Assembly: GCA_020055645.1 (NCBI GenBank)
Contig: CM034547.1
Location: 22,778,513-22,842,512, forward strand
Direction: 5' to 3'
DNA: 64,000 nt
Source of the DNA: Tomocerus qinae
Lineage: Eukaryota > Arthropoda > Collembola > Entomobryomorpha > Tomoceridae
In this document: positions 11,590 through 62,900 of the stretch, one piece after another
How the letters are laid out: each line of letters opens with the position of its first letter
Numbering within the stretch: the stretch's first letter is position 1
Position numbers and translations under genes: made by a program
Notes under the pieces: generated by a model
What the model saw: only the letters and a program-made list of their open reading frames with translations
What the model was told of the DNA's origin: nothing
Database searches by the model: none

Positions 11590-14234
11590 ATGGATAAAAT
11601 GGCTTTTGGAGATATGGAGGAGCTATCTACAGTTTCGACTAATCATACCATTCAGTTTGAATCCCCATCTCACACAGCAACTCTTCTGTGTGGCCTTAAT
11701 GCGTTGAGAAATAAAAGTCTTCTAGTCGATGTGACATTAACTGCAGGAGGTCAAGCATTCGAAGTAATCAACACTACACTGTTCTTATTATAATTATATC
11801 CGTTCAATGTTATTAATAATTATGTGCAATTTTTGTAGTTTGTTCCCTTTAAGACGATTATATTACCTTTTGTTCCTAGAAGACAAGAGTTATTAATTCG
11901 GACATTCAAATTGTTATAATATAATTTCTTGGTTTACAGGCTCATAGAGTTGTACTGGCATCTTGTTCGGATTATTTTCGTGCCATGTTCACCACTGAAG
12001 TGAGAGAGAGTCGTCAGAAGGAAATTACTTTGGAAGGTGTTTCAGCAAAAGGGATGAGATTCCTTTTGGACTATGCATATACATCGCGATTAGCATTAAA
12101 CCTATCTAATATTCAAGATGTCTTGTCAGCTGCCAGCCATGTACAAGTTGTTACTGTTGTAGAAGCATGTTCGAGCTATTTACAGGTTAAATTTTTTTAT
12201 TGCTGCTTTTGTATAATTTAAAAAAATATTAACAGTTTTATAAGAATGAATGAATATTTTGCAGGCTCAGCTAGATTTAGAAAACTGTGTAGATATTGTT
12301 ACACTAGCCGAGACATACTCATTACACTCCCTGAAGAAACGTGTTTATCGGTTTATTTGTGGACATCTGATGGAATTTTCACAAACAACGGACTTTCAAA
12401 GATTATCTGCTGCGCAACTGGAGTATCTTCTAAATTGTGATTATCCTGTAGACTGCCCTGAATCCGATGTACTTCACATCGTATTGCAATGGGTGGAATA
12501 TAATACGGACAGAATACCCTACGCTGCAGGCTTACTAAACAAAATACAATTTCAGGTATGTCTAAATTAACTTTTGCATATAACATTATCATTATATTTA
12601 ACACCCACTTTTATTGGCATCAGTTTTATATACTTTATGGTGTACTGTCAAAATTACAGTTTTACCTTATCATAATTTCAGGAAATACCACCAAAAATTC
12701 TGACTCAATTGTGGGACTTTTCCATTCTACAATGTGTCAGTGCTCAGTCTCATTCACTTTACAAACTAATTGTCTCTCAAATGCTTGTCGACCAGTCGCA
12801 TTTTTTGCAAATGAAAAAACAAACATCTAGTCTAGTCAACTCTAGAGGAATGGAATTGGCCATCATCAAAGTAGGTGGATTTGGCATTGCTGGTGTAACT
12901 AACGAAGTCACTTACTTTCTGCCAAGTGTTGGTCGATGGAAACGTTTGACTACCATTCCACACGTTGAACAATGCAATTTTGGAATGGCCGTTTTGAACA
13001 ACCAACTATATGTTGTAGGAGGATGTTTTAATCAATGTCTTCAGGTAATTTGCTGCAACTATCTTATTGGTTTCTTCTAGCTGTAATATTTTTCATCATA
13101 GTATTGTGAAAATTAAGTTTGTATAGAACAGTGTGATAATAAAATATATTTATGTTTAACATCCTGTAGGAGAACATCCATCCTTTTGGATTTTGTTATA
13201 GCCCCCGATTTACAAAGTGGACTACAATGGCACCAATGCTTTTAGAACGTTGCCGATTTACTTTAAATGTTGTTGAAGATAAATTGTATGCTGTTGGGGG
13301 AGCTAGCGAAAATGTTGAAGAAGTTGTGACTGACGAAGCATGTGCCTGTGAATGTTACGATCCTGTAACAGGTAAAGACAATCACAACTATGGCCCAAAA
13401 TATTTATTTTTTGTTTTTGAATCTTTCTTTGATTAAAAGGTTTTAAATGTCAATTTCTTTTACTCAGATACTTGGACTCCTATTTCACCTTTAGCGGCTT
13501 CACGAACGCAACACGCTGGAGCTCCGTGGAATCATTTATTATTCATTTCTGGTAACATAAGTTATGGTTCTACAATTAGGTATTAATTTGTTACTTCCTT
13601 GAGGTTTAATATTATTTCTGGTCTATTGTAGGTGGTTTGGAGCAAGATCTAGTCAGCAATACCTTACTATGCTATAATACGAGACTTAAAGAGTGGGAAG
13701 TGAAAACCCCTATGCTGACTCCAAGAGCGGATCATTCGATGGTGGTTTACAAAGATAAATTATTCGTTTGCGGAGGTTGGTGCGAGGATGAAGCAACTGG
13801 TAATCGGTTCCTAGTAACTACAATAGATGAATATGATATTGTAAAAGAGCGATGGACCGTCATTAGCGAGGTGCCAACACCTAGATATCATGCAGGGATC
13901 ACTGTAGTGCAAGATCAACTTTATATCATTGGCGGATTTCATAGCGATGCAACATTTGATCGTACAACAGGTATAAAAATTTTAAATTACATTTTTGTAG
14001 TGTTTGAAATATCTTGATGTAACTGTAACATTTTATATCGTGTTGTTTTTATCTTTGTACTTATGTTGTTAATGTTGTGTTTCAGGTGTGATAGAGTGTT
14101 ACAATCTCGAAACAATGGAATGGTCAGCTGTTGAAAGATATCCTCAAGACATTTGGGAACATGTTTGTGCAACTTTATATATACCAAGGTCGAGAGAGGA
14201 CATGGAAGTTATATCGGATTTACCTCGAAATTGA
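11590..14234 (+). CDS. BTB-BACK-Kelch protein of the KLHL26/KLHL9-13 group, 615 aa, eight exons
   Basis: Exons 11590-11763, 11940-12185, 12265-12555, 12682-13044, 13170-13371, 13468-13551, 13632-13970, 14086-14234; 1848 nt. An in-frame TAG at 11560-11562 precedes the ATG. The product should be a substrate adaptor of a Cullin-3 RING ubiquitin ligase. The BTB domain spans about residues 30-140 (LLVDVTL, AHRVVLASCSDYFRAMFT). BACK follows at about 145-260 (LEYLLNCDYPVDCPESDV). Six kelch blades begin near residue 285, each ending in a double glycine (KVGGFG, YVVGG, YAVGG, FISGG, FVCGG, YIIGG) with a following aromatic/Trp strand. The closing phrase GVIECYNLETMEWSAVERYP parallels the end of KLHL26, and the length equals that of human KLHL26 as I remember it. 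KLHL9/13 are close relatives, so the exact orthologue is not settled. All splice sites are canonical. Confidence 0.92.
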
Positions 14235-37705: not shown

Positions 37706-40700
37706 ATGGGTCACGGATCCAGTTCGTCCCACATTAATGCACCACCTTCCACTGTCAATGGAGTTGTCAATCACAATCCAAGTCCTGGAAGAGAGGAATC
37801 GATTTCCGCCGGGGAAGTTGAGACTCCTCCTACACTTCGTTCATCTAAATATCGAAGATCTACGGCGTCTTTAACTCTATTATTTAGAAAGAGAAGATGG
37901 AAGAAGCATCGGGGATCTATAAGTGCTTCTTTCAGCATCAACGAAAATGACATAAAGGTTTGTAATGTATTCACAATTTTACATTTATGCTTTCCACTTA
38001 CGTCTTTGTCGAAAAGCTACGTAATGAATATTGAACAAGTCCTTTCTTAGAATTGTATACAGGACATAACCTATTTATTGTAAGTAGGAACTATTGTAGA
38101 TGAAATAGCTAGAAATATTTTAGATAAGTGAAGTAAATTGATTGAAATAGGTTTGTTTGTACTTAAGGTGAGTGCTACCTTTTTGAAAGTAAAAATACCT
38201 ACAGTAGTTCTTGAAGTGAATGAACCATTAGACCTGTGCAAATCGACAAGTCGTCATTCACTATTTACGAATTCCATATATATCGTGCAATGTGCAATAG
38301 AAGCGTACCGTAGCAATACTGTAAACAGAATGTAATGTGGCACATGACTTTGCTTAGTACAGAGTTCAGTACAGCTTTAAGGTAAAAGAAGTGCCTACTT
38401 TTTGTTGATGTATTGGCCGTGTGTGTATTCAATATTCAATCCGTTCGTTGGTGATGTAATAGGGTATTGATCGATTTGAAAATTTGAGGCTAATGCAGTA
38501 ATATATATGGACTGAATTTAAAGGTGGAGCTCTTGAATGTGAACACAGCAACGGAAGAGGAGCTAATGACTCTTCCCGGTATCAATAGATCTTTGGCACG
38601 GAATATTATAAACCATCGTCAGCTCATCGGAGGCTTTCGAAAAGTCGAGGACTTGGCTCTCGTTTCCGGAATGGGTGCTACTAAATTGGACCACATTCGT
38701 CCGGAAATTTGTATTTCGAGGAAGAAGCCTGCCAATTTGAGGTTCTTATTAAGCTAATATTTTATCGCCGTAATATTCTTCTACTATTATGCAACTTCCT
38801 CCATATGAATGGAATCTGCTTCACAGCGCATTATGATGAAACGTTGCAGATTGCTTAGTTTAATACATGTTATTTAGTAGGATGAATCGAGGTACGCAGG
38901 TACATTAAAAAGGTGCAGTTAATACTCAGCTAAATGCAAAAGGTTGACAAGGTATTTCAAACCAGAATCTAGAATAGACAAGGAAACTTCCATTGCTAAC
39001 TTATAATGAAAACACCTACCGGGCGCTACTAGGTTATAAATCTCTTTTTAATTGCTGTTCGCAACATTTAATTGACACGATTTATGCATACAGCGCAATT
39101 CATCCAACTCTGTCCCTCCTTAAAGTTCGGTTAACTTTTGCTTTCAAAATACAATCCACACACTACATACAACACGGAATAAGTAACACACATGTAAGAT
39201 TTAGGTACTTACATCTATAGGTATGTATTATCCGAAAACCCAATAAATAGCTATTCTCTTACATCTAATTTCTTTTAGGCTGTATGTTGTGATGCATATT
39301 CTTTTGATGCCACATCCTTGTTGAAAAATATTGTCGCAGCTGCATCTATTATTAGCAGTTCATTTCATCTGCATCAACTCAACTGTGTCGCGTAGTTTTA
39401 GAATGTTTATGACACATCGAAGGAAATTGTTAAATTAAATGACAAAATTGTGGAGATACTTCTTTGTACATCTATGATCTATATAATCCATAGCATAAGG
39501 ACACTAGTGTTTTTTCTACAGCTTTTTTATGCTCTGTAGTTTGTGAAATTGGCTTACAAATTACTGAGGAAGATAAAACATTGAACTACTACTAAATGGA
39601 TAATTGAATTTTCTTGATATTTTTCTACAGTCGAGCATCATCTAAAACTCCATCAATAGAAAGCATCCCAAGTTTGGCAGATTCAGCTCGAATGACTCCC
39701 CGGTGGCACAGAGCGATCAATATAAACAATGCAACAATATTCGACTTGATGAGTGTTAATGGAATTAATCAAGCATTGGCTGCTAAAATAATTACTTACA
39801 GAGATAGAAAAGGTCCATTTAAGAGTGTGGACGATTTAAAAGGCGTTGGTATCAGCTACAAGCGTCTAGGAGCTATACGGATGCATTTAACTACGGAGGA
39901 GTGGGATTCTGATAAGGGCTCTACCAAATCTACCAATTCTCCTTGCCAAATTCGAACTCCCAAATTAATTAAGGGTAAAACATACTCAAAACACCTATCT
40001 TAGTTTTAATATAAATTGTACGAATTAAGAAAATAGAGCGACTTAGATTTAAGATGATTTAAGCTAATATCTTAAATACTTTTATGCAAGGTCATTCTCG
40101 ATCAAGCTCAGTTCCTGTTGCGAGGCCGGATGCAACTTTTGACATTAATAGCCAGAAAATAAATGGTGTTGGTTCGTCGCCTTCATCGCAGCCGCAGATC
40201 CAAGACCTGAAAGTTATTTATGACCTGATGTCGGTCAAAACAAAGCGACCAAATCGGTTATCTGATTTTCAATTTACCCACAAGTGCCTGCCGGCTTACC
40301 GCATCGCTACGTGGAACTTAGAAAGACTTACTCTAGAGAAAATTGCTAATCCCGGTGTTCTAGAAGTAATCACTAGAACCATTTTAGAAAATGGGTAAGT
40401 CTCTCTCTCTCAGATCTGACTTTAAGCTCTTTTGCTTAGAATTTAATTAAATTGGGTTTGAATTACAGATTCTCCATCGTAGCTGTGCAGGAGATCTGCG
40501 ATATCACTGCATTGGAGAAGGTGAAGAATCTCTTTGTTTCCTTTTTCTATCTATTTAATCACACGGAATAGCGATATAGTGGCTAGTGGATTTACTGTGG
40601 AGAGATGAGTGGGCTTTTGTCTAATGAGGGACTGTCGAGAAACGTTTTTATAAATAGAAGAGTTGTTCTCAAGTGTTCTAAATGAGAGTAAAATGCTTAC

Positions 40701-45162: not shown

Positions 45163-45882
45163 ATGCAAATTTCAGCTCAATGCAAGCAAATTGGCCAGAA
45201 ACCGATAATCATGAGTGCAATTTCCATTTTAACTGTGGCAGTAGTGATATCTCCATTAGTTGTGGATTTCATAGCAGTGGACGGTCGGAATAGAATAACT
45301 ATTGACCATTTGTATAGCCACATAAAACGACTAGAATACTTGCCGTCGAGTTGGTATGGTGAGCCTTGTGATCGTGACAATTACCGTACCCTGATGATTC
45401 CCCTTTGGGAAGCATTTCTGAAAGACCCTGATGATGACGCCGTAGTCCCTTTATTCAATAACATTCTGGCACTTGCCAACGCGGCTTCTAATGTAAATTC
45501 TACCTATTTTTGGAGTCAAATCTGTTTTGCCAAGAGTTTGGAAGCGTGCAACTTGGAGACTAATGTTTGTGACTGCTATAATGATACTACAAGACAGGAT
45601 GCTGGTAGGATTGAACAGGTAAGTGAGAAAGGGCACTGTGGCACTAAAGCCAGGCTTAGTTGTACTCCATGGGAGGTTGATAAGGGTAAAAAATCAAAAT
45701 TAGCTCCTGATTTAAAGATTGATTGTGAATTAATGGCAAATTGCAACAGTAAAAATTTGTGCCAGTGTGCAGTAAACCAAATTTGTAGCTCGGCACATTC
45801 GGCAGTTCGAAAACATGTACTCTTCCCATCTGCACTATATTTTATAACTGTTATTTTCCTTTTCTCCGAATTAATCATGTAA
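45163..45882 (+). CDS. Cysteine-rich secreted or GPI-anchored orphan protein, 239 aa
   Basis: Single open frame of 720 nt, not assigned to a family. A hydrophobic signal-like segment covers residues 17-40 (MSAISILTVAVVISPLVV and following); if translation starts at the second ATG (45211, A at -3) the protein is 223 aa with this as an N-terminal signal peptide, which I think more likely. The mature part has paired cysteine modules: ICFAKSLEACNLETNVCDC and, after a GHCGT-LSCTPWEV stretch, DCELMANCNSKNLCQCAVNQIC. This C-x7-C-x6-C-x-C spacing resembles EB-type modules of arthropod secreted proteins. Possible N-glycosylation sites are NSTY and NDTT. The last 22 residues are hydrophobic (FPSALYFITVIFLFSELIM), as in a GPI-anchor signal or a single membrane anchor. 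CTTTCTCCATAG just before the first ATG could be a splice acceptor. AATAAA at 46035-46040 is a likely poly(A) signal. Alternative: type I membrane protein. Confidence 0.75.
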   Translation: MQISAQCKQIGQKPIIMSAISILTVAVVISPLVVDFIAVDGRNRITIDHLYSHIKRLEYLPSSWYGEPCDRDNYRTLMIPLWEAFLKDPDDDAVVPLFNNILALANAASNVNSTYFWSQICFAKSLEACNLETNVCDCYNDTTRQDAGRIEQVSEKGHCGTKARLSCTPWEVDKGKKSKLAPDLKIDCELMANCNSKNLCQCAVNQICSSAHSAVRKHVLFPSALYFITVIFLFSELIM

Positions 45883-47729
45883 ACAGTAGAAATAAGGAGA
45901 AAATATTATGTAATGCACAGATAGTCGTAGTATAAGCCCTTTTCATCCTTCTTATTGTGATGACACTATTTTATATTGTATGAAACAAATGATAATGATT
46001 AGAAGATGTAAAATCAAGTTCTATCTTGCTTTGAAATAAACCATGAATTAAACCAAAAATAGAAATATGAATATTGTACACATTAATATTAGTATTTCTT
46101 TTGTAGCAAAGGAAATGAAATGTTCCATATCAATCTGAAGCAATTCATGTACCAAATTCAGCCCAGTTTCAAATTAGAAGCCCTTTAGGACTCCAAAAGG
46201 TGTATAAAAATTTTGAACGAATTACCTCGGTTGGTTTTTGAGTTATGTATTTACTTTTAACACAATCACACATTATAGACAGAGAGAAAGCCGGACAGGC
46301 TGAACAAAGACCTGAAGTAGGCGTTCCGCTCCCTAATAATTGAGCATTAACATCAGGAGCGGACAAGAGACATTTAGATTTAAAACTTTCATTTCTATAC
46401 TTGATGTTTCATCGACTATGAGAAGAAAGATTCATGTGGGTCAATGTCGGAAATACTTATTAGGCCAGGGGTCAAAAATAAACATTAGCGACACCAATCC
46501 AGACTATTAAACAGTACATGAGTGCTGTAGTATATTGGACCAATGCTACTTATTACCTTAATGTAATTCCCGTAATTGTTATTGCTACTAACTCCCACAA
46601 ATCGTTTACAAACACGGTCTATAGATCAGATTAGGAATCATTGCCATGAATTATATCAAAGAGTGTTGCTTTTGCTTTGCATGGAGCAGTAGACATTTAA
46701 ACGTGAAGGGGAAGCTTAAAATTTAAGTTACATGAAAATCGTTCTTGCCATTTATAGCTACAAGATTATGTCGGGGAGTGCATTAGATATCTACAATAGT
46801 TAAGCTTTCTGCAGATATAATATACCTACTGTTTTCTATAGGAAAGTCTGTAGTTGGTTGATTGCGTGAATTCGTCAATGCCACTGAAAAGGTAGTTGGG
46901 TTTGGAGTGTGGAACGGGTTGTGAAAAGCGTGATAAGTAAGTTCATTTCTGTGTAGCTGCTTTCTTTAGTTGATTTGATCGATTAGAACGGGTAACCAAG
47001 GCTTCTGAAGGAAAACATTGCGGCAGTTCGTCACTATACTTTTCTCCGTTGTATCAATCACCTCCGATATTTTTTTCTCCAGAGCGAGAGCAGAGCCCTA
47101 GCGTTCATAACAGTGGAGTACAATAACGTGCTGACTGTTGCCGTAAATGGACCGAAAACTCGTTGTTTTACAACCTGCAACTTGCAATTCTATACTCCAG
47201 TCGGTCCTGACAGACTAAGCTGAATTATGTGGCAACAACAGCACCCCGAACTATTGAAGGGAATCATTATGTCAACTGTTCAATACTTATAGACATTCTT
47301 TTCCTTTCTTATATCAGTTTCCTGTCTTACTTCATCGACATCACATCGAAACACAACATTACTCCCTTATCTATTACTATACACAAATTCTTTGACTCAA
47401 ACTAGGAAACCCAATTCCCATATAACTAATATATTTTTCATCCCTGAGTTTTAAATAGAAAAAATCAACTGCATTCAAGAACTATATATAGACACTGGGA
47501 AATCTACCAATAAGTTCAACTAGGAGGACCTACATAAATATTTCCATATCACATTTTACTACGTGCTTGCTACCAAAGCAGTCGTTCATCATTGGTGAAA
47601 GTGATACAACTGACTAAATGTTAAAATAATTTTCTTTGTGAAAGAAAGAATCTACCCCTTTGATTATGTAATATTAAATAGCGAGCAGTTTGGTTTTAAC
47701 TCATTAACAGTCCGTGAGTGATTACAGAT
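45883..47729. other. Intergenic between the orphan gene and MAK exon 1A
   Basis: AATAAA at 46035-46040 follows the orphan gene. A minus-strand frame at 46366-46169 has no recognisable features. A GC-richer patch at 47080-47240 could belong to a promoter or 5'-UTR exon of the kinase gene. TTTTAACTCATTAACAG, ending 47710, could be an acceptor for exon 1A. Confidence 0.4.
46035..46040 (+). terminator. Candidate polyadenylation signal of the cysteine-rich orphan gene
   Basis: AATAAA 153 bases after the stop codon at 45882. No other consensus signal lies between. Confidence 0.55.
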
Positions 47730-50700
47730 ATGACTATGAATCGCTACAAAACTTTGGGACCATTAGGTGACGGTACATACGGATCTGTTGTACTCGGCCA
47801 ACGAATCGACACAGGGGAGAAAGTCGCTATCAAAAGGTTAATGTTATTTTCGTCACTTTTACCTTTTACTATTAATTAACACAAAATTAATTTAAGAATC
47901 TGCTCACGTATTTCAGCCATTATAAATGTCATGTTCAATAATACTATGTCCCCCAGCTACAACTGGATTACGTTTATTTGACACCCTGTCCTTTGCTCTT
48001 TGGTTAGGAACCTACTTAGTTATGCATGACAGTTGAATAACCACACCTTCATATTTCGTTTTCTACCATCTTTCCACATAAATGTTTTGCTGTAGTAAAT
48101 CACATTGTTGATGTAGTAAATTCAATATTGTGACATTTGGCATTTGTAAAAGGTGTGCATTGAAAATAAGGCAATTTGCAAAAACCACTTTGTGTAATGT
48201 ATGAAATAATATTAAATTACTATTTGTAGAGTGCCTTTAGGTATGTAGACATGTTGTACTAAATTATAAATTATATAGTTTAGAAAGTAATAAGAGTAAC
48301 AGCTTCTTAATAGGTACTAATATTTATCGGGGACATTATTTATTTAACACATAGTATAGAGTACGGTAAAATGCCAGCAATGAAAGCCCATGGAAATGGC
48401 ATCGTTTACTGTAATATTGACAAATGATCTTTAGCATACTCTCATTTGCATACGTACTTGGGAGAGAAAGGCTCAAACGGTGGCAGTGTAATGATTACGC
48501 TAGATTCAGGAAACTAGTAATTAATGATTTTACTATATAGTTTGTTCGTATTATGAATTTGTATGAATTTGAGTTGTGTCAAGGTTCCTACTTCCTGCAA
48601 AATGTCGCGTACTTTACTTTTATCAATCACGCACAAAGCGTTCAAATACATATTCATTTCCTCACAGTATGGGCCTTTTGGTCTCATTCTATGACTTGTT
48701 TGTGGGCTATGTACTTTTGTTATTTGTCAAATCTTTATGACTTGCTTCTATAGGTCACTCATGATATATTGTTATGATTTGATTTATATACGAGGTTTGA
48801 CTTAATGACCACATTCGTTACTTATGTATAGCCATAGGAGAAAGAATGCATAGCGGAGTGAAGAATTATTATATAGTATTAAATAGGCGTATTTTAGACT
48901 GCTAAAGACCTTTAGTATAAGAATTTTCATCTTTTTTTCTCTTTCTTCGGTGCACCTTGAAACCGATTTGCAGGAGATACTGTAGCTTTTGGCCCAGTTT
49001 CTTGCCTCAAGTCCTACTTAGCTCAAATCTAGGCATTGCAAAGTGAAACTTCATCTGTGTGGTCAGTAGGAGTGACGACGGCATGCGAATAGTTGCCTGG
49101 CCACCAACTACTTGCTAATCAATCTATATAATGTTTTATTATTATACAGAATAGGTACAATAATAAAAATCTATAATCACAAACGACATTTTTAAACATA
49201 TTAAAAGTAGAGTATTATAAAATCTCTAGCTCTGCTCTGGATAATATTATACGTGACATATTTAAATATCCACTTATATAGTCCTATTAGAGCTCTATAT
49301 TATACTTTATCACAAAAAGCATAATTTACCATTCACAAATAGTCCTTTGATAAGGAGACACCATTCAAGTCCGTTTGACAATCAGTTAACTAAAACTCGT
49401 GCACAGTACAAAAATGGGGAAAGCAATTACTTTCGGTGAAGCTATGTTGACTAAATATCGTTACGTGCAAAAACTTGGTGACGGCACTTTCAGCGATGTC
49501 TATCATTGTGTAAACAAAAAGAACGGAGAAGATGTCGCTATCAAAACGTAAGCGTTTCAATGTTTATCTAAACTTGTGTTGAAAAGTATTGAGTGTTTCT
49601 TTTCAAACCATTTAAATGGATATACAAACAAAGAAGTTAAAGTAGCTGTCTTCAAGTACTTCAAGTCTCATGGTTAAGTACTGCCACCATAAAAGGACGT
49701 CATTTTTTAACAGTGGAGAATTTATAACAATACACCTTTCACCTCTGAAGACTTTAATTCCCCAGGCTCCCACTCAAATACTCAAATTCAATGTGAAGTT
49801 GAAAAAAATGTCCATTCACAATGCCTAATCTGTCTATTTTGTAAATCCTGTATAGTTAAAGATGTAGTAGCCAGTCAACCAAAAGTTATCAGTGCCCCAT
49901 GTAACGTGTAGCATTTCATAGATATCATTACTTAATTTACTTAACATTGTATAGCAATTTAAAATTATACCGGAAAATGTACCGGAGGATATGTATCTAA
50001 AACTCATTAACTAATTAATTCATAACGTTCAATGACATAATACATTTCTATATAGAAATGTCTGACCAATTGAGAAGTGTGGTGGTGAGGTGGATACTCT
50101 TTTCCACTTACCTGTCAATATCAGTGAATATGGAGCTATGAAAATGATTAGCCCCTGTGGTTAATATCATTGTAAACATTGGGGGATTGATACTATAAAT
50201 TAAAGCAAATGTCTTAGAGTACACATTGGTAAAAGCTTTAGATATCCATATTTTGGGCCTTGAATTAGCGCTGCAGGAAATGGATAACGACAAATTATTA
50301 GACGCTGTACAATTAATATTATACGAAAGAAATTATGCATTTTTAAACCCTAAATTCAACTGCAGAGTGCAGGCAGAGTCATCATTAATCCCCGTAATGC
50401 CAAACAGCAGGATAGTTTTTGTTTACGAGGACACACATACTCGTGAAATATAAAAGGTTTGCTTCTCGTTTTTCACAAGCTTAATATGGTTTATGGCTTT
50501 GAGTCAATCTTTTTTTTATTCAAAGAAAACAACGTTAATGACGAATTTCATTTCGAAATTGTATCAATTACAACCAAGGGCCTTGCTCAATAATACTATA
50601 TTTGAACCAACCATTATTATCAGTAACGAGGAACATGCCTATATACTGTTGAAACACAAGCGTGACCATAAAGTAGTAATCACCGTGAATACTATCAGAC

Positions 50701-53700
50701 AATTGTCAGCTAATGCCTTTTCCGTTAATTAAAGAAAACTATCCAATACATTTACTCCAAGGATAAGGCCACGAAAAACTCATAGGCTACTAAAATATTA
50801 AATCCATTACCTATGCCAAGGATTCTTATGACACTCATTCCTACATGACTTGGGTTTTATCAAAACATTACTAATTAAATAGTCATCCTAGTAATCAATA
50901 CCAATTCACAAATATAAACATTCCGTATTAATTTGATTCTAAAGAGCTATTTAGATAAGTTGTATGTAACTTTAGCGAGTGTATAAGTATCAATTGAAAT
51001 AATACAACATTAATCTAATTTATGTTTATTTCTTTGTTTCAGGATGAAGAAGAAATATTCCACTTGGGACGAAGCGATGAGTCTTAGAGAAGTTAAGGTA
51101 AGCTATATTAATTTAGTAATTAGCCAAAGAGACTTCATGTATGCTAATAACACATTAATGAGAAATAAAATTTTGTTGATTTTATGGATCAGGTCAAGAT
51201 TTCGTTTTTGCTTAGGGGAGTATAATAAGCAAAAACTAAAATCTCCTTGGGTCAGGTTTAAATAAGTTTAATGTTATATCCAACACCTATCTTTGTTTGT
51301 AAATAGGAACACATTTAAATCATTAGAGCTAAAATTTGTAGATCTTGTTATTGTATTTGCCATAATATAAATACATAAAAGTCTATCTTTGATTTTAAGT
51401 TGTACTAAAAAATAGTATTTTTTAATTCCAGAATACTTTTTAGGTACAATTTTCAAAACACATTCCACGTATAACTAACTGGGCCGAAGGGCCTTTAGCA
51501 TTTATTCGTTACTTACATGGAGCTCATTCAACTTTGGTCATCAGACAGAATAAGATATTATTTTGTGATATGGATTATAATCAACTACGTTTATGAAATA
51601 TTTCATAATATTCTTTCTCTATATTGCACTTATTAGGTACACGCAAACTCGTCTTTAAGTATTTCACAATTCTGTATGACACAAATAGGAATATTCGATT
51701 TTTATCCGGCGATTGTCAAAGAAATACAATTCCTTAAGTGTGTTACTTATTGCATGCTTCCCAATTCCCCAAACATTATTAGTAGAAACGTCAATAGCGT
51801 CTTGAATATGAATTGGACAATGAATATAAAGCATTAATGCATTATTACTTTGCGATTCATAGAAAATATTTTTATTTGATAACTCCTAGCTGTGATGATG
51901 TATATATAATATATGATGGTATATGATGTCAATATGCTCACCTGTGTGCTAATTTTTTTTTGCAGTCACTGAAGAAATTAAGTCATACCAATGTTGTTAA
52001 GCTGAAAGAAGTTATACGAGAGAACGATACGCTCTACTTTGTTTTTGAGTACATGAAAGAAAACTTGTATCAACTAATGAGAAATCGATTTGAGCGAGGG
52101 TAAGCTACTTGGCATTATTTTCTCTAATTATCAATGTTTAAGCTTCTTTACTTTTGTCCATCACCCATTCGTCTCCATTTAATAGTGCGATGCATTTAAT
52201 TATGGTACTGTGAGTGTGAATATAATCCTATAGAACGCAAAACACTTTTATCTATGTACGTTATTCATGCAAATACTGGATTATGGATTATCACGCTTTG
52301 ACATTCCCCGTTTTGGGTATTAGTAAAGTACTATGCATGAAGTAAATCGTTTATGTACAGTAGTAAAATGCTTATCTGTAACAATGCAGGGAAATCGTGT
52401 ACAAACCAAGGGCAAATTTGTTTCCATTTGCAAGAGATTGTTTGTGCGTGATATGGAAGTTTGTTTTCAAGAGGAAGCTTGATATTTTCTTACGAAATCA
52501 ATCGAACATTTAGTATCAATATTTGTTGTATGAGACCACCTTCAAAAATGAAGACGAATGTGGATTTGCCCATTGCATTATTAATTAGGTAGCTCCATAA
52601 TCGTGTTGGAGTAAAAATCAATATGTCTCTAGTCACAATAAGTCGAATAAGAAAAACATATTTCTTATTGCTTTCACATAACTGAAGTAGCAATGGAGTG
52701 CACTAAGAATTTCCAGCGGTGCATTCATTTCCTAGTTATTTACACTCTAAATATCTCATGCGCAACATTTTTACGACTTAAATGTTTAAATAATAATGAC
52801 ATTGTTTGCTGTATTATCTCAACTTTGTACCTTTGTATTCTAAGCACTTATTTTATGGGCTCATATTTTTTGCATTTTACACTTCAAACATGCTTTTTGT
52901 GGTTTTAATGATTTATTTTGTACACATTGAGCAATATGCTGAATACTACAGTTTATATACAAATAGCATTTTCGCCTTTGCAATTAATAAAGATTTAAAA
53001 GTTCATGGGTTTTACCTTGTTTTCAGGGAGAAGCTTTTTCCAGAAGAAATGATTCAAAACATGATTTACCAAGTTTTGCAAGGATTAGCATTCATGCACA
53101 AGCATGGATTTTTTCACCGAGATATGAAGCCTGAGAATTTACTATGTATGGGTCCTGATTTGATTAAAATAGCTGACTTTGGATTAGCAAGAGAAATCCG
53201 ATCAAGACCACCGTATACGGAATACGTGTCCACGAGATGGTTAGTGTATAAATTGCTATATAGCTAGAATTTTTAATGCACGGAATTTTTGGGAACATCT
53301 GTAGATTTTTGTATACGAGATGATGAGATGATTTAAGATGTTTTCCTATACTCCATTTGTGAAGTAGCAATAGTAAATAGTAAGTGTACTAGAATGTCAA
53401 ATCCTAGTAGACCATTTTCATTAATGCTCTTTACGAGTATCATATCTCCAAAAGATGGTCAATTTAGTTAATCACACCTGAAATGACAAGTACTTTGCGG
53501 AAAGAGTTCTAATTCCATGGAATAAAGCATTTACGTGTTATAAGAATGGGCTAAACTATTAATGCACCCATAATAAGCACCTTATGACATTTAGCTAACT
53601 ATTATGTGCCCATAAAGGACATAATCATATACGTCCGTCATTATAGTACACTTAACTATGCACAATGTTCATTAATTGTAGCTGTTATTTTTTGTTATGT

Positions 53701-56355
53701 AATTATTGCATGAATTAATTGCAATTGTAACGTGTTTAGGTACCGAGCCCCTGAAGTTCTGCTGAGGTCACCATTTTATTCCTCGCCAATAGACATCTGG
53801 GCAGTAGGATGTATTTTAGCAGAACTGTTTACCTTTCGACCATTGTTTCCAGGGTCTAGCGAAATTGATGAAATATTTAAAATATGCACGATACTTGGGA
53901 CACCGGACAAGGTAAACCTTGCTCATATCTGTTGATACATAATTGTCTTATTGTACGACCATGATACTTATTTCCGTCTGAAGGTTTTTGGCATATTTTT
54001 TCAGAGCCGAAGAATTTAATAATCTTTATTGTCTTTAACCGATTGTACTGATTTGTTTACTTTATGGGTTTTGACAACAGAGCGAATGGCCAGAAGCACA
54101 TCAACTAGCGAAGCAAATGAACTTTAAGTTCCCTCAATTTGACCCTACCTCTTTGCATAAAATAATTCCAAACGCAAGTAAGGACGCAATTTATTTAATT
54201 GAAGATATGCTGAGGTGGAATCCCAAACACCGACCCACAGCCAATCAGTCTTTAAGGTAAGCAATTTGATGGCTGTATTCAAGTATACCTAAGAGGGTAC
54301 ACATTACTAAGTACACACAGAGGAAATAATATTTCGGAAACTATAAAGCATTTAGTTTCATAATGGCATTGGCAGGAAACATGTAAATAACCAACTAAAG
54401 CAGAAGAAGTACCTTTCGTATGTTTTATAGTTGGCTTTGTTTGACAGTTTAGTATCCTATCCTACTAGTTGGTCGTGGGAATTCGGAAGGCTAAAAGGCT
54501 GAATTCCAAGAGCATTTAAATATGTTATTACGACCATGGCTTATCAGGAAGGTATTGCCGTCATATTATTACGCCTACTGCGAGGCCTTCCTCCTCGCTG
54601 AATTGTATTAGTTATTGATTCATACCGAATAGTGACATGTCGTGTCCGTCTACTCAAGTTCTTTGTCAACTTCGTCAAATTAAATGACAATGACACTTCT
54701 GTTTCATTGTGCAATAGTAATATTGTCACGTATGGACGTAAATAAAACTCCAGCTATATCCTCAACAATTGTCATTTAAAATTAATATCCGTAAGCACGG
54801 ATATTTTCCTCGTTTTTGACGTACACCCTATATAGACAGACGTACCTATATATTGATGCCTGTCTGGCAATTTAATTTTCTCCAATTTCCATTAATTTGA
54901 AACTTTCGCTTCAATTTTCGGTAATGTGCACTTAAAAACTATTCTAAGATTACGTAAAGAAATATTTAGCTATACATATACAGCCGTAGGCTAACACAAC
55001 ACTAATGTATCTGTATGTAAACTAGTGACAATAACACAGGGAGGAATAATCAATATCCATCCTGGGAAAGTTTGCAATTTTCACGAAGAAAACTTGTCCC
55101 AAAATAAAAATTAGGGATTGTTTGAGTGAAAAGTCTGCATTATGGACTTGGTAATGAAGTATATTAGTAATGTGAAATGGTTCTCTAATGGTTATTGTCG
55201 ACTGCAGGTATGCCTTCTTCAACACGGCACGGGAGCGGGAGAGAGAACGACAACAGACTCAACAGCCCGACCTTCTGACGCAAACTTTAGTTTTGGCCCA
55301 ACAGCCCCAAGTATCTGTGAATATTCCCTTGCCGTACCAAACGGTGCAAGCAGAAGTATACGAGCCAATGACAAGAAAACTGAATCCAAAATGGGATAGA
55401 GATTACTCTTTCAATGACGACTATGACGGGTATGGGAAAAACGATCTGGAGAAATCACTGAGGTTGTACTCTAATGCAGAAGTACAGATCTTGAAACATA
55501 ATCCGAAAGAGAAAATTCTCATGAACCCAATGGTCGATAATGGTTTGCCCATGTATAGGAATAGCCACAACGAGATTGAAAAGTCCTATACTAGTCGTAT
55601 GTCTACCAATAAGTTGTCACGCTATGTTTCCGGCAATGCCCAGCATCAACCCAACAAGCAGCCGTCCTCTCACACTACCCGGCAATACCAACCCGTACAG
55701 AAGAAATCCTACTCTAACCAGAACGCTCAGCCATCGGGTAAAACTGGAGTCCATACGCTTGTATCTGTCTATCCAAGTCAAGTTAGACTATTTTGAATCA
55801 ACATCCCTGCATTATTCGTTCTACTTTGCTTTCCCTCACCCTTAAATTCATTTAAGATTTTCCGGTAGTGACTGATACGCTCAATGACTTTATCAGAGAT
55901 TAGAAAATATCACTTTTCCGTTCTATTCTCCTCAAAAACCTCCTTTGAATTCTTAATTTGCTTTTATTTTAGGAGTTCCACGCTATGACTCTGGAATGGG
56001 AACACTTGCACTGAATCAAAGCGCTTATAGTCGCTACCCTTCTACCTACGAGACAAGAAAAAGCGCCTTTATGGGAACAACTGAAGCTATGAATAAAGCT
56101 TCGAAAGCCAACAATGCACAATTATTAGGAAGAATCGACTGGGCTGCAAAGTATCTCACTTATGGCCAATCATAACCTTTTTACTCTCGTATTCTTTGCA
56201 TCTATCCTTTTCATTCCTTCTTTCCTATTTTCATTTAGCAATCAACCCATTAACCTAATCCGAACTATCTCTTCCCTCGCAGGTACCTCAAAAAAATGCG
56301 ACCCAGTTATCAACCTTTGTCTAACCTAAGAAAAACTGGATCTCTGACTGATTAG
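47730..56355 (+). CDS. MAK: MAK/CILK1 (RCK-family) ciliary kinase, isoform A, 545 aa, nine exons
   Basis: Exons 47730-47836 (1A), 51043-51097, 51966-52099, 53027-53239, 53740-53911, 54081-54256, 55208-55737, 55973-56150, 56283-56355; 1638 nt. An in-frame TGA at 47715-47717 precedes the ATG; a second ATG two codons later gives MNRY, as in vertebrate MAK. The product is a Ser/Thr kinase of the CDK/MAPK-related RCK group that in known animals controls cilium length and intraflagellar transport turnaround. Motifs: glycine loop GDGTYGSV (13-20), VAIK lysine K35, HRDMKPEN (129-136), DFG (149-151), activation loop TEY (163-165), VSTRWYRAPEV. Kinase domain is about 6-292. The tail is Gln/Ser/Arg-rich ([12 protein letters not shown]) and ends with the conserved GRIDWAAKY followed by a short extension. 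Exon 3 ends with four extra residues (FERG) compared with MAK. The exon 1A donor (GTTAAT) is weak. MAK versus CILK1 cannot be decided, as invertebrates usually carry one gene. Confidence 0.93.
49414..49547 (+). CDS. MAK: Alternative first coding exon 1B of the MAK gene
   Basis: 134 nt encoding 44 residues plus two bases, ending ATC AAA AC before a strong donor GTAAGC. It joins exon 2 at 51043 in the same phase (2) as exon 1A, giving VAIKT-MKKKY instead of VAIKR-MKKKY and a 554-aa isoform. An in-frame TAA at 49387-49389 precedes its ATG. It encodes a complete alternative to 1A: start, first strands, glycine loop GDGTFSDV and the ATP-anchoring lysine. The third loop glycine is Ser, as in the related kinase MOK. 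GTCGCTATCAAAA is identical at the ends of both exons and the proteins share LGDGT and GE-VAIK, so 1A and 1B are diverged duplicates. The two cannot both be in one message without duplicating the lobe, so separate promoters are implied. A non-functional relic is less likely because frame, start and donor are all intact. Confidence 0.8.
50199..50732 (+). pseudogene. Decayed open frame inside a MAK intron, source unknown
   Basis: Between exon 1B and exon 2 one reading frame stays open from 50199 to 50732 except for a single TAA at 50451-50453. The parts are about 84 and 92 codons. A further protein-like stretch in the same frame upstream (about 50057-50195) is broken by three stops. Composition looks protein-like ([40 protein letters not shown]) rather than like neighbouring intron DNA, yet there is no recognised domain. 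It could be a retroposed or mobile-element or virus-derived fragment, or chance. No poly(A) tail or terminal repeats are seen at its edges. Confidence 0.35.
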
Positions 56356-56908: not shown

Positions 56909-59900
56909 TTAAAATGCAAATCTTGTTCGAATATCTTCCAATTTTTTTGCAACTTCATTCGCAGTTCGATCAAGATCTTCTCCAATACTGCGCTGCTTAT
57001 TAGGATCCATTGAGTTAAACTGCTCGCACAGATCACCATCAATGACATTCTACAAATTAAATGTTATTTATATTTCAATCCCAATAATAAGCTTTTTTAC
57101 AAGTATTTATTTTTAAAAATTTAGTAACTTACTCGAACAGGAAAATAATACGATCTAAATGACAAGTGGTCTCGACCACATAATGGAGGATTTTCGCTTC
57201 TCATGTGCATCTCCAAATGTTGGAAGAAGTCGTGATCTTCATGAGACGTAAAAGGAACCAAAATTCCTACACTGCCTGATATCGTCGTATACACTAATGA
57301 CTCATTTCCTCCTGGGATTAAAGTTGCTTTCTGCAAAAAACGCCATAAAAAGATTTTTCTGATTAGAAGTTGATAGTAGACAATGCACATAAAGGAAATA
57401 CTTTGACAAATTGCGATCAGATTTTGTATAGTATAATCAGCATGATCAGGTGAAACACGGACAAAAAGGTAACATCATCTACAAGTTTGTGAGTTTTATC
57501 ACATACATTGTAAACATATTTAATTTTACCTGTAACGAAAGAACAGTCTCGCCAACATGAAAATTGCAGATAACATCTAATTTGTTTGACGCTCCACTTA
57601 GGAGCCCTCTATCCCACAGAGCTTTAGTGCCAGAAGGATCTTCATCGACATCATCGGATGTGTTTGATGGGAGACGTACCTAAAGTATTGGTTAAATAAA
57701 TGGTTATTGAATTAGCAACAACTAACAACAAAAAAATCTAAACATTTTGTCAATAATATTTCAGGATATCGATCAGCTACGATTTTTAATCATTATTTAT
57801 CGTTAGTCTAACATGTAAAACCATCATTTCGATTTCTTTTAAAAGTGCAATCCAACTCCTTCGACCACTGAAGGTTGAAACCCTTTGTTGCATACCATAT
57901 ATTTTTTATTTTTAAGATCAATCAGGTGAACATACCATAGAAATGTTGCCAAATTTGTCAGCCAAAGCTACAGTATCGTAATCAAGAACACATGTCATGG
58001 TAATCCAACGAGGATTAGTTTCATCGGCAAATACTACCAGCTGATTATCCTGACGCCTGTATTTCACAAAATGGACGCTTTCCTGGACATCCGAAACAAA
58101 TATTCTTGACCCCATCGCAGTAATATGTACGATAATATTAGGAAAATGCTGAAAGATAAATACAATCATAAAGTTTTAATAAAAAATGACATACCAAAAA
58201 GTTTAAATATGCAATTACTATAACTCAGAACTGCAGAACACAATAGTCGTCACACAAAAGTCGGTGTGTTAATTATCATCCTTGTAAATCGAAACATAGA
58301 AAAACTAAAACTCATTGTATTATATTACCTTATTTTCGCTTTTTCTTAGAAGTTTCTTCTTTCCGAAATCATAAAGTCTTAGAGTTTTCCCCAGTCCTAC
58401 TAAGATCTTTCCTTGGAAGGGACACAGGGCGTACGGCACTTCATCAACAACAGTTTTGTGTAAAAATTCCATCCCGGTACAAGTCTCATTTATTCTACAA
58501 AAAATATATCAAGTTGGTAAAAATTGTTTTAATGCCACTCCGAACATAATCATAGCAAACATTTACCTATAGGTATAAATAAAATTAGCTCCAATCACTC
58601 GAGGTACCAATTGAAGATCTTTCGCCACTCCAATGAGAATAAATTGCTGGAATTCTCCTTGGGAGCTGAACTTGGCATAAGCCAAACTAGATAAAGATAA
58701 AATATTTTATCAAACTATGATCCAAAATTAATCAAAACATTTAGCACTAAAAATATACCTGACTACAGCTTCATTTTGTTCGAAGCGGTGAAGGAACAAA
58801 GTCTTCCCTTCAATAGGATCCATTATTCGCACAACAGACGCCCAAAGTCCAGGTCCGGCTTTGGGAGCGCCAAATATATTATCTGGGAGATCTTCATTAA
58901 GAAAAGCGTCGGCCATTTCTTGAGCCAATTCTTGTTCATCAGGACCAGCTGCTTCTTTCATTTCCTAGAGGAAGTAAAGTTATGCGTAAATATAATTTAT
59001 TGTTCGAAGGCTAATAATTTGCATAAAATTCAATTTTATCTTGTCAGATTTTGTATAGAATAATCAAACGGGTTCAGGTGAAACACGGACAAAAAGTTAA
59101 CGTCATTCAAGGTTGGAAATTTGAACTAAGGAATAAATTTTTTTTACAATAACGTAGACAAAATTATGATAACTTACTTCGGCCATTTGTATTCTACGCT
59201 GACTTTTGATTTCTTCAGTATAAGCATTATGATCAGTCTCAATTATAATTAAATGTCCAGTATCAGGATGAATAACAAATTTTTTTGGCGTATATTCTAA
59301 GGGAAATGACATTTGGTTAAAAACAGCTCCAAGCTTTTCCATAGCCAAAATTCTAAGAGTGTTGGTTGAAATGGCTACTACTCCTTCGGGACATTGTTCA
59401 GAAGAAAATCCAGATGCATATTCTAGCGTCTCATAGGACAAAGGAGTTAGATGGAATCTGTACAAGTTAATCAAATATTAATCTCAAAATCAAAAGAAAT
59501 TTCCAGTCAATAGGCTTTGCATAACTTGTACAAAAAATGTTAAATTTAAGTTATACCTGTTTTGAAAATAATAACTGAGCCAAGATCTGCTGGACATAGC
59601 TAAAACGGCTTCTCCTCCCTGCATTTTAATTCGAAACAATTTGACTGGTCTCGATCCTAAATATCTTGTTCGCGTATCAGCTAAATCACCAGTGACAGGG
59701 TCTAATACTGTTCTAAGTAAAACCCCATTTTCTAATCCTATATTCAGGTATAAAGTTCCTTGCTGTACGTCTTCTGATCCACCCATTTCGGCAATACAAA
59801 GTGATTCAGGAAGGGCTGGAAGGGCCTGCATACTTAGCGGTGACAGACAATCCTGTTAATAAAGTTTAATTAACGTTAATTAGTTGGTTCAAACATCATC

Positions 59901-62900
59901 AACTAAAATGTTAAGGTTAAGACACTAAATAATTTCAATGCTTAAAATTTGTCACTTACGGAGGGGTCCAATGATATAATACGGACAGTACTGTCCGCTA
60001 GTCCCACAGCAAGAAACCGTGATCTTTGTTCTCCGACAGGTACTGACCCCAAACTCATACAAACAACATCAGCAGGCATTTCTCTTCTTTCGGTATACTC
60101 ATTTAATTGGCCAGTCTAACAAAACAAAAATTCCTTAAGCATTTTCTCATTGCGTCAAAAAATATTAAAAATTTTCACTTCAAATACTTACAGGGTCCAT
60201 TTCGAAATAGACTATTTCACCTCCTGTCAAAGCAATTACAACTTGACGTTGGTTGACAGCACATCGAAAGATAGACCTTTTCCCTGGAGCCTTCCACTCG
60301 TTTACTCTCTTGTCCGCTCGAATATGACGAATACCATCGGGATAAATCTATTTCAGTTTCAAATGATTTAATAAATAGTAATAAACAATAATAATTAATA
60401 TTATTATATTTCACCCCTCACTTCGCGCCAAGCATTACCATGTTTAATTATAATACACGGGGTTGGGAGCTAAGAGCTCGCATTTATAATTGTAATTCTC
60501 CACTGTGTCGATCCATTGTCTGGCGCCTGACAAACTGACAACTGTGAGGAATTATTCTATTATAAATACGAGAACTAAAAATTATTATTTAAAAACATAA
60601 TATTGTAACAAACCTGCACGAGTGCATCCTCCCCTAACGTAGAACAGGACAGTGTAGGAGTGGTTCCCAAGAAACCTGAATCTGTAACTTCTTCCACAGT
60701 TTCACCGATAGACAATACCAGCGTGGCATTTACGAAAGACACAATAATGTAGGAGTCAAATTCATCTAGTAAAAGCAAAAATAAAATTTGTATCAAAATC
60801 AATCTATTGAATTAATATGTAATTTTTCATAATACTCAATATCGATCAGCTACAAATTTTAATCATTATTAATCGTTAGTCTAACATGTAAAAACCATCA
60901 TTTCGTTCTATTTATTCTCAAGTAGACTTTTAAGGGGTTGAAAATGTTGAAATTAATATAAGATGAACTATACCATCTGCTCGTCTTTTGACAGTCCAAA
61001 CAGCATTTGGATTTCCAGGAAGTTCTGATACAGCCATCTCTGATACCTCCAGTCCGTGTCTTAGAACGCGCAAAGAAGATCTTGGGCCTCTGCCACAAAG
61101 CATATATAGTTGAGGCGTGTCTTCGTTCGCTGTAAAAATAAAAATATTTGGTCAATAACTGCTTGACACCAACAGCACCACAATTTTCTTATAGTAACAA
61201 TGTTTCCAACCAAAGACAAGGAATAGAGAAACAGGAAAATATATACCTAAATCAGCAACTTGGCAGGTAATAATTGGTGACAGAGAATCGAGTTCGTCAA
61301 CCAAAACCAGATTTCGTAAATGTCTGGGCGCAAAGAAAAACGTATCTCCTTCTTCCAAAGGCATCGCAGAACTGAATTCAGGTTCATCGTCATCATCCCC
61401 CAAATGAGCGATTTGGTATAAATAACTAAAAATCAACACAAGAGTTAATTGTAAATGTGGTGATAATAAAAATGACCCCATGACATACTTAACTTGATTA
61501 GTCTTTTCACATGATTAATTACTCACTGGTTTCCAAACTCAGACGCCACAAAAAGAAATCCAGTCTTCAAGACGCACATCGACGTTGCAACTGGTGTTGT
61601 GTCGAAATACTTCAATTTTATTTCAGTAACCATGTCCTCGTCAATCTCCAAAGTTATTTTGAAAATATCTCCCTGTTCCGTTTGAGCCAAGAAGAAAAAC
61701 ATACTCTTTGTCTTGTGGGCAGCTGAACATACAAAAATCATTCCACGTTCAGGATCGTCCAAATCATTCTGCACACCACAGCAATATGGTATATTACATA
61801 ATATGGTTTCTTAACAAAAGTATACAAACCGAGGGAATAATTTCCATTAAGTATTATCCTAATGTAGCAGACTATAATTCCAAGAAACATTTGATCAGTT
61901 CAAATGTCCTAACGATGCTAGTTTCTGCGTTTTTTTAGCACTGTTTAACGACCACAATTTTGATAATCAAAAAGATGGAGATACCACAATGCCATTAATT
62001 TCTTTAAAAATCGAAATCTTACCCTCCTACGAGGAATAGGACAGCGGATATCCGGTTGATCACCCAGATTTTTGTACGTAATATAATTTTCAGAGCATAT
62101 AAGAACCCCACTAGGGCCATCGTTGCCTCCAGGAACGGTAATCAGAAAATTAGCGTGTTCGTCTAATGCCTCACTATATTTTCTCACTACGTGATTTAAC
62201 CCGAGATCCAATTCGTAGAACGTTAGTGTTTGTTTTGTATTCTGGGCTGCTTCTCCAGTTGGATCAGTGTCTGCCTCCTATTAATATGAATACCAACAAT
62301 AAGACATTATTAAACAAAATATTTTTAACTCTAAAGAAAGTAATATTATTTATTATGCCGACTAAGACTAAACAACCGAATTAGATAAAAACAACGTACT
62401 TCGTAATCCATTTCTAAGCAGGCGAACATAGGATTCTCGAAACCGACATCAACTCCTACAATATGATACACAAAGGTATTGCTTTTGTGAGCTTCTAAAG
62501 GAGATGATATAGTTAATCTTGCCTGAGCATCACGATTCAAAATGTAAACTAACTTCTGTTTCTCCGTCGCACCTGAAAATTATTACACTAATAATGAAGC
62601 ACAGGATCTCACAAGCTACAATGTGAAAGTGAAATATGAATATATGGCATAAGCCTCTTTCCATAGAACTTATACCTTGCTTTAATAATGATTAAACACT
62701 TACCGATCATAACAGCACGCCCTTTTGGATCAATAGCAAGATACTGGCCAGGAACAATTCTTCGACAACCACTTTTACCAAATGTTTCTTGATGGACCTT
62801 TTCGAACATATTTTTCATGACATTAAACTCCAAAATTACTGTCCGCCCAGAGTCTGATCCCACAACAATGTAATCTACACACAACAATCAAAACCGTTAT

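Follow-up and report, generated by a model that had tools for sequence, protein, structure and literature searches.

In cyclin-dependent kinases, the Thr-Tyr pair of the glycine loop serves as an inhibitory site. A comparable arrangement has been described for mammalian CILK1 (also named ICK), in which phosphorylation of Tyr15, at a site described as CDK-like, leads to partial inactivation (PMC7140639). Further reports state that FGFR3 phosphorylates CILK1 at Tyr15 and interferes with ATP binding (PMC12189920), that ICK is inactivated by FGFRs (PMC8423421), and that FGFR2 and CILK1 show no interaction (PMC12010920). Phosphorylation of Tyr15 is a property described for vertebrate CILK1, and neither for Tomocerus qinae nor for every FGFR. 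Other described systems are kinase genes with alternative N-termini, such as PKA, and the part that is swapped in PKA precedes the glycine loop. PKA Calpha1 and Calpha2 differ in their myristoylated N-terminus and form indistinguishable regulatory complexes (PMC3163529), and among the isoforms of C. elegans kin-1 the N'1 form is myristoylated, whereas N'3 and N'4 are not (PMC9692727). Isoforms described for zebrafish mak vary at exon 14 (PMC11273301), whereas the variation analysed here concerns the first coding exon.

The locus lies in the T. qinae genome, which comprises 334 Mb in 115 contigs (the five contigs in our list of loci measure 24 to 140 Mb). The window, by which we mean the whole stretch of 64,000 nucleotides that was analysed, carries a kinase gene on the plus strand at about 47.7–56.4 kb. 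We rebuilt this gene by hand from the sequence, with frames and splice words checked by script, and its features in window coordinates are as follows.

47730..47836, plus strand: exon 1A, first coding exon; 107 nt, remainder 2, donor gttaat; canonical MAK/CILK1-like N-lobe start MTMNRY...LGDGTYGSV...VAIK
47766..47789, plus strand: 1A glycine loop GDGTYGSV; TAC at 47778-47780 encodes the equivalent of Tyr15, residue 1 being the MNRY methionine at 47736
49414..49547, plus strand: exon 1B, alternative first coding exon; 134 nt, remainder 2, donor gtaagc; ends in VAIK
49414..49446, plus strand: N-terminal part of 1B before the 1A-aligned stretch; 11 residues from Met-Gly-Lys, with an inner ATG at 49444
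49477..49500, plus strand: 1B glycine loop GDGTFSDV; Phe codon TTC at 49489-49491 replaces Tyr15, Ser codon AGC at 49492-49494 replaces the third glycine
51043..51097, plus strand: exon 2, with an acceptor common to 1A and 1B; preceded by tttcag
51966..52099, plus strand: exon 3, kinase domain, in the joined frame
53027..53239, plus strand: exon 4, carrying the activation-loop TEY at 53217-53225
53740..53911, plus strand: exon 5, kinase domain, in the joined frame
54081..54256, plus strand: exon 6, end of the kinase domain, in the joined frame
55208..55737, plus strand: exon 7, C-terminal tail, in the joined frame
55973..56150, plus strand: exon 8, C-terminal tail with GRIDWAAK; if left unspliced, the frame would run on to a stop at 56175 (YLTYGQS)
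56283..56355, plus strand: exon 9, tentative last coding exon, in the joined frame

All donors in this model are GT and all acceptors AG. In-frame stops lie upstream of both start codons (TGA at 47715 for 1A and TAA at 49387 for 1B), with an earlier in-frame ATG in neither exon. When 1A or 1B is joined to the eight downstream exons, the resulting frames of 545 and 554 amino acids contain zero inner stops, and the 1B product is nine residues longer at its N-terminus. Both exons encode the beta1-loop-beta2-beta3 segment of a kinase ending at VAIK, and the VAIK lysine, HRD and DFG are all intact in the translated frame. The initial annotation had proposed two exons, each with an ATG preceded in frame by a stop, both finishing in phase 2 at a GT donor and joining exon 2 at 51043; the frame and splice-word checks bear this out, as translation does for the two different loops and the nine additional residues of 1B. 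At the level of sequence, the paired first coding exons of this kinase gene are real. At the other end of the gene, the exon 9 terminus is tentative, given a weak splice donor at exon 8. Two alternative C-termini are possible between 56140 and 56355, one produced by exon 8 read-through (stop by 56175) and one by weak-donor splicing to exon 9.

The kinase domain is recognised by the Pfam Pkinase profile, at 243.4 bits for full-length isoform A (profile positions 1-263) and 253.6 bits for the kinase domain of isoform B. Assignment to the RCK family as a MAK/CILK1-type kinase is supported by motifs: the gene has in common with MAK, CILK1 and C. elegans DYF-5 the kinase domain, VAIK, HRD, DFG and a T-x-Y activation loop, together with the Tyr15-type loop of exon 1A and a long C-terminal tail. 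The naming leans largely on comparison with human sequences, including a presumed match of the product to human MAK/CILK1. In the PDB, the best 60 of 477 matches are led by CDK2, and among these none is named MAK or CILK1. The activation loop reads TEY in T. qinae where TDY is reported for the RCK family (PMC13118852), an Asp to Glu difference. Of the earlier reading of this locus, two first coding exons in one kinase gene with different ATP-loop lids stand on the sequence, and the RCK identity stands on its motifs. When a 290-aa kinase query was searched against the genome, all in-window matches among the 135 of 430 candidates that were scored were exons of this same gene. The initial annotation had also likened the serine at the third glycine of 1B to that of MOK. 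The serine is present, in 1B as in MOK, but the likeness does not make 1B a MOK exon: a gene that we take to be MOK-like from its motifs sits elsewhere in the genome (L034, C2:66.71 Mb), its loop GEGSYSEV keeps the tyrosine that is phenylalanine in 1B, and its first-exon frame continues beyond the position of the 1A/1B intron. With this MOK-like gene separate and 1B joining a MAK-type exon 2 in frame, we rejected the identification of 1B as a MOK exon.

A strict glycine-loop-to-VAIK expression, composed after the exons had been seen, has two matches in the six frames of the 64-kb window, which are exactly 1A and 1B, and 0 matches in 60 sequences of the same 64-kb length generated by a first-order Markov model. 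With a loose loop motif, the stretch from 42.5 to 51.1 kb yielded no additional first exon. Taken alone, each exon peptide aligns to positions 1-30 or 1-31 of the Pkinase profile, with 18.7 bits (E 0.0012) for 1A and, for 1B, a stronger 26.1 bits (E 6.6e-6). Neither score reaches the whole-domain cut-off of 31.7 bits, which is to be expected of peptides of about 30 residues. A further Pfam match of 1B to Nmad4 (E 0.027) is chance-like. In NCBIfam, 1A has no match and 1B matches only two bacterial kinase families, far under cut-off, and at gathering scores no Rfam family matches the window. When 1B and its flanking DNA were searched against the genome, one match was obtained, in a search that passes over simple repeats and very common words. 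This single match, with the 39% amino-acid identity of the two exons, rules out an assembly or haplotype duplicate of 1A, and the absence of a second match rules out a repeat or mobile piece, outside the simple repeats and very common words that the search passes over.

Counted from the MNRY methionine, 1A reads G11-D-G-T14-Y15-G16-S-V18 and 1B reads G11-D-G-T14-F15-S16-D-V18, where we take the numbering of Tyr15 to agree with that of CILK1 and CDK2. An alignment of isoform B with CDK2 is gap-free over the loop and sets CDK2 TYG opposite 1B TFS, with the CDK2 tyrosine over the 1B phenylalanine. The initial annotation stressed the replacement of the third glycine, an emphasis that is probably misplaced. 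One report finds that 85% of kinases conserve this glycine and names DAPK as an exception (PMC2651756), so the Gly16 to Ser change seems tolerable. Tyr15 has a reported regulatory role in CILK1, and its change to Phe may matter more than the change at Gly16. With Phe at this position, the 1B kinase would presumably be undampable at that site, and since 1B keeps both the VAIK lysine and the valine following the loop, an active kinase would be expected.

We put at about two in three the probability that this is one RCK gene with two alternative first coding exons, the 1A form controllable through Tyr15 and the 1B form independent of it. Under this explanation, 1A and 1B would each be transcribed from a promoter of their own. 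Transcripts starting at 1A would encode the canonical form, whose loop is GDGTYGSV with the CDK-like Tyr15, and those starting at 1B a kinase with the Met-Gly extension and GDGTFSDV, in which Tyr15 is replaced by Phe and the third glycine by Ser; from exon 2 onward the two forms would be the same. Both kinases are predicted to be active, and their main difference would be that phosphorylation at the loop tyrosine could damp 1A, in the way that FGFR3 acts on CILK1, but not 1B. The Thr-Tyr loop site is like that of the Thr14/Tyr15 switch in CDK1 and CDK2, but where those kinases switch by phosphorylation, this gene may in addition dispense with the tyrosine through its choice of first exon. The local sequence offers little to locate the two putative promoters. 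Inr- and TATA-like words are so frequent that those near both exons carry no weight (TCAKTY occurs 127 times on the plus strand of the window). X-box (RFX) words match once in the 1A interval, inside exon 1A itself, zero times between the exons and twice in the intron after 1B; as a mark of a cilium gene these are uninformative, because the window holds 74.

An alternative, which we regard as unlikely, accepts that 1B is used and places its importance in targeting: a myristoylated Met-Gly-Lys extension would target the kinase to a pool at membranes or in cilia, and the loop change would be neutral drift. Exon 1B does begin MGKAITFG, in the context acaaaaATGGGG. This start is a possible but weak N-myristoylation signal, with Lys and Phe close to the Gly. 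PKA Calpha1 versus Calpha2 (PMC3163529) and C. elegans KIN-1 N'1 (PMC9692727) offer precedents for such targeting. The constraint seen in 1B, however, falls on the loop and VAIK of the kinase part rather than on the extension, and translation from the inner in-frame ATG (49444) would begin much as in 1A and lack the extension altogether.

The loop-control reading must also be weighed against an origin of 1B outside this gene, in which the exon derives from a different kinase gene (MOK- or casein-kinase-1-like) and now stands before exon 2 as a relic or stray. We consider this improbable, more so than a role in targeting. Its basis is that 1B is nearer to casein-kinase-1-type loops than to 1A: against those of the genome it is identical at 52-55% of 31 amino acids for three loci and 47% of 36 for a fourth, compared with 39% of 33 against 1A, and the best PDB matches of the 1B plus exon 2 peptide are casein kinase 1. 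The four exons compared were chosen from 24 matches to the 1B query, 12 of which made loci. Against a foreign origin, the place and phase of the intron are identical in 1A and 1B, whereas a GT at this place occurs in 0 of the 4 casein-kinase-1-type exons examined, three of which (L011, L013 and L015) read on and the fourth of which (L010) has possible donors only 10 or 15 nt further on. The frame, donor, phase 2 and LGDGT of 1B all suit the present gene, no other strict loop motif and no exon of another kinase appears in the window by the searches given above, and the MOK-like gene sits elsewhere. Donor sites were scored by a generic matrix. On this scale the donor of 1A comes out as weak, at 0.25 bits (8% of the 3731 window GTs score as high), the 1B donor is better (2.71 bits, 2.4% of the same 3731), and the other seven donors of the gene range from -2.96 to 7.03 bits; since its donor is better than that of 1A, 1B does not look like a decayed exon.

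A relic would also be expected to lose its frame or motif, and the divergence of the two exons bears on this directly. They are identical at 13 of 33 aligned amino acids (39%) and at 50 of 99 nucleotides, with pN 0.459 and pS 0.621 over 22 silent sites, and the strong divergence of the silent sites indicates an old split. The residues in common are Tyr4, LGDGT, Val18, Gly-Glu and VAIK. In a simple neutral model without a tree, in which 1B drifts freely from a 1A-like start to the same nucleotide identity, 10 of 20,000 trials kept the frame open with 13 or more identical residues. Retention of the motif, unlikely under such drift, points to 1B being a maintained kinase exon. Because 1B lies nearer to the casein-kinase-1 loops, its derivation from 1A rests on the intron position and the LGDGT/VAIK match; on these features, the pair most likely arose when exon 1 was duplicated in tandem long ago, and convergence is the more likely source of the casein-kinase-1 resemblance. 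Descent of 1B from 1A at the DNA level through shared codons was considered and is unsupported, as 6 of the 13 shared residues have identical codons against 4.94 expected from the codon usage of the gene (p 0.36). Separately, the last four codons and the next base (47823-47835 and 49534-49546; 13 nt, GTCGCTATCAAAA, encoding VAIK) are identical between the two exons despite diverged silent sites elsewhere. The identity of these four codons has p 0.003 for a stretch picked after looking, and perhaps reflects a shared splicing signal or gene conversion.

That 1B is instead a cassette exon spliced after 1A, which would yield a kinase with two tandem N-lobe starts, is very improbable: splicing from 1A to an AG at 49405-49406 would keep the frame into 1B, but this acceptor has 8 pyrimidines in 17 positions against 9-14 of 17 in the eight other acceptors of the gene, and a doubled beta1-beta3 would misfit the kinase fold.

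The surroundings of the gene contain further coding features. Downstream on the minus strand, at 59103-61810, both of the two open reading frames tried match RSE1/DDB1/CPSF1 beta-propellers, and we presume this neighbour to be SF3B3. Upstream on the plus strand are BTB and Kelch exons of a KLHL-type gene (11925-14017), a helix-hairpin-helix (HHH_3) exon at 39608-40003 that we assume may belong to an EEPD1-type endonuclease/exonuclease gene, and a 239-aa open frame at 45163-45882, cysteine-rich by eye and with hydrophobic stretches near both ends, for which Pfam gives no match at E 0.01. Elsewhere in the genome, kinase open frames form clusters on the largest contig (G000:C1) at about 27.2-27.3, 34.3-34.5 and 107.7 Mb, most of them free of inner stops, and a pair at 68.39 and 68.79 Mb, 0.4 Mb apart, has identical scores. 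These clusters and the identical-score pair suggest recent kinase duplication.

Alternative first exons of kinases are already known, and what would be new at this locus, judged from its predicted exons, is the swap of the glycine loop together with its regulatory tyrosine. Like PKA (Calpha1/Calpha2 and the C. elegans kin-1 N' exons), the T. qinae gene combines one kinase gene, alternative N-termini and one Met-Gly start; it differs in that the loop itself is swapped, where the PKA swap lies before the loop. Narrow phrase searches of open-licence full texts found no swap of a glycine loop or its regulatory tyrosine by a first exon, in agreement with the initial annotation, which knew of no described isoform pair of this kind. 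In the open-licence literature on CG42366, CILK1 and dyf-5, at the level of titles and the beginnings of abstracts and in passages mostly not aimed at isoforms, no RCK isoform swapping the first coding exon is described.

The broader proposal that follows from loop control by exon choice is tentative, and we would give it rather less than even odds. In this proposal, the choice of first exon would be a genetic bypass of a loop-tyrosine brake, with 1A dampable by growth-factor-receptor or Wee1-type tyrosine kinases and 1B, with Phe15 and Ser16, not. The two forms would probably serve different ciliated cells, for example sperm and sensory neurons, such that the control of ciliary length could be uncoupled from tyrosine-kinase signalling with no second gene needed. 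To our knowledge, the known first-exon pairs of kinases, those of PKA, alter sequence outside the catalytic core, whereas the swap predicted here would fall inside the ATP lid and remove the residue used to damp CILK1. If this holds, the gene would choose by exon whether its ciliary kinase keeps the tyrosine brake, and two cDNAs that are identical from exon 2 on would provide a natural experiment on the role of CILK1 Tyr15 in cilium length.
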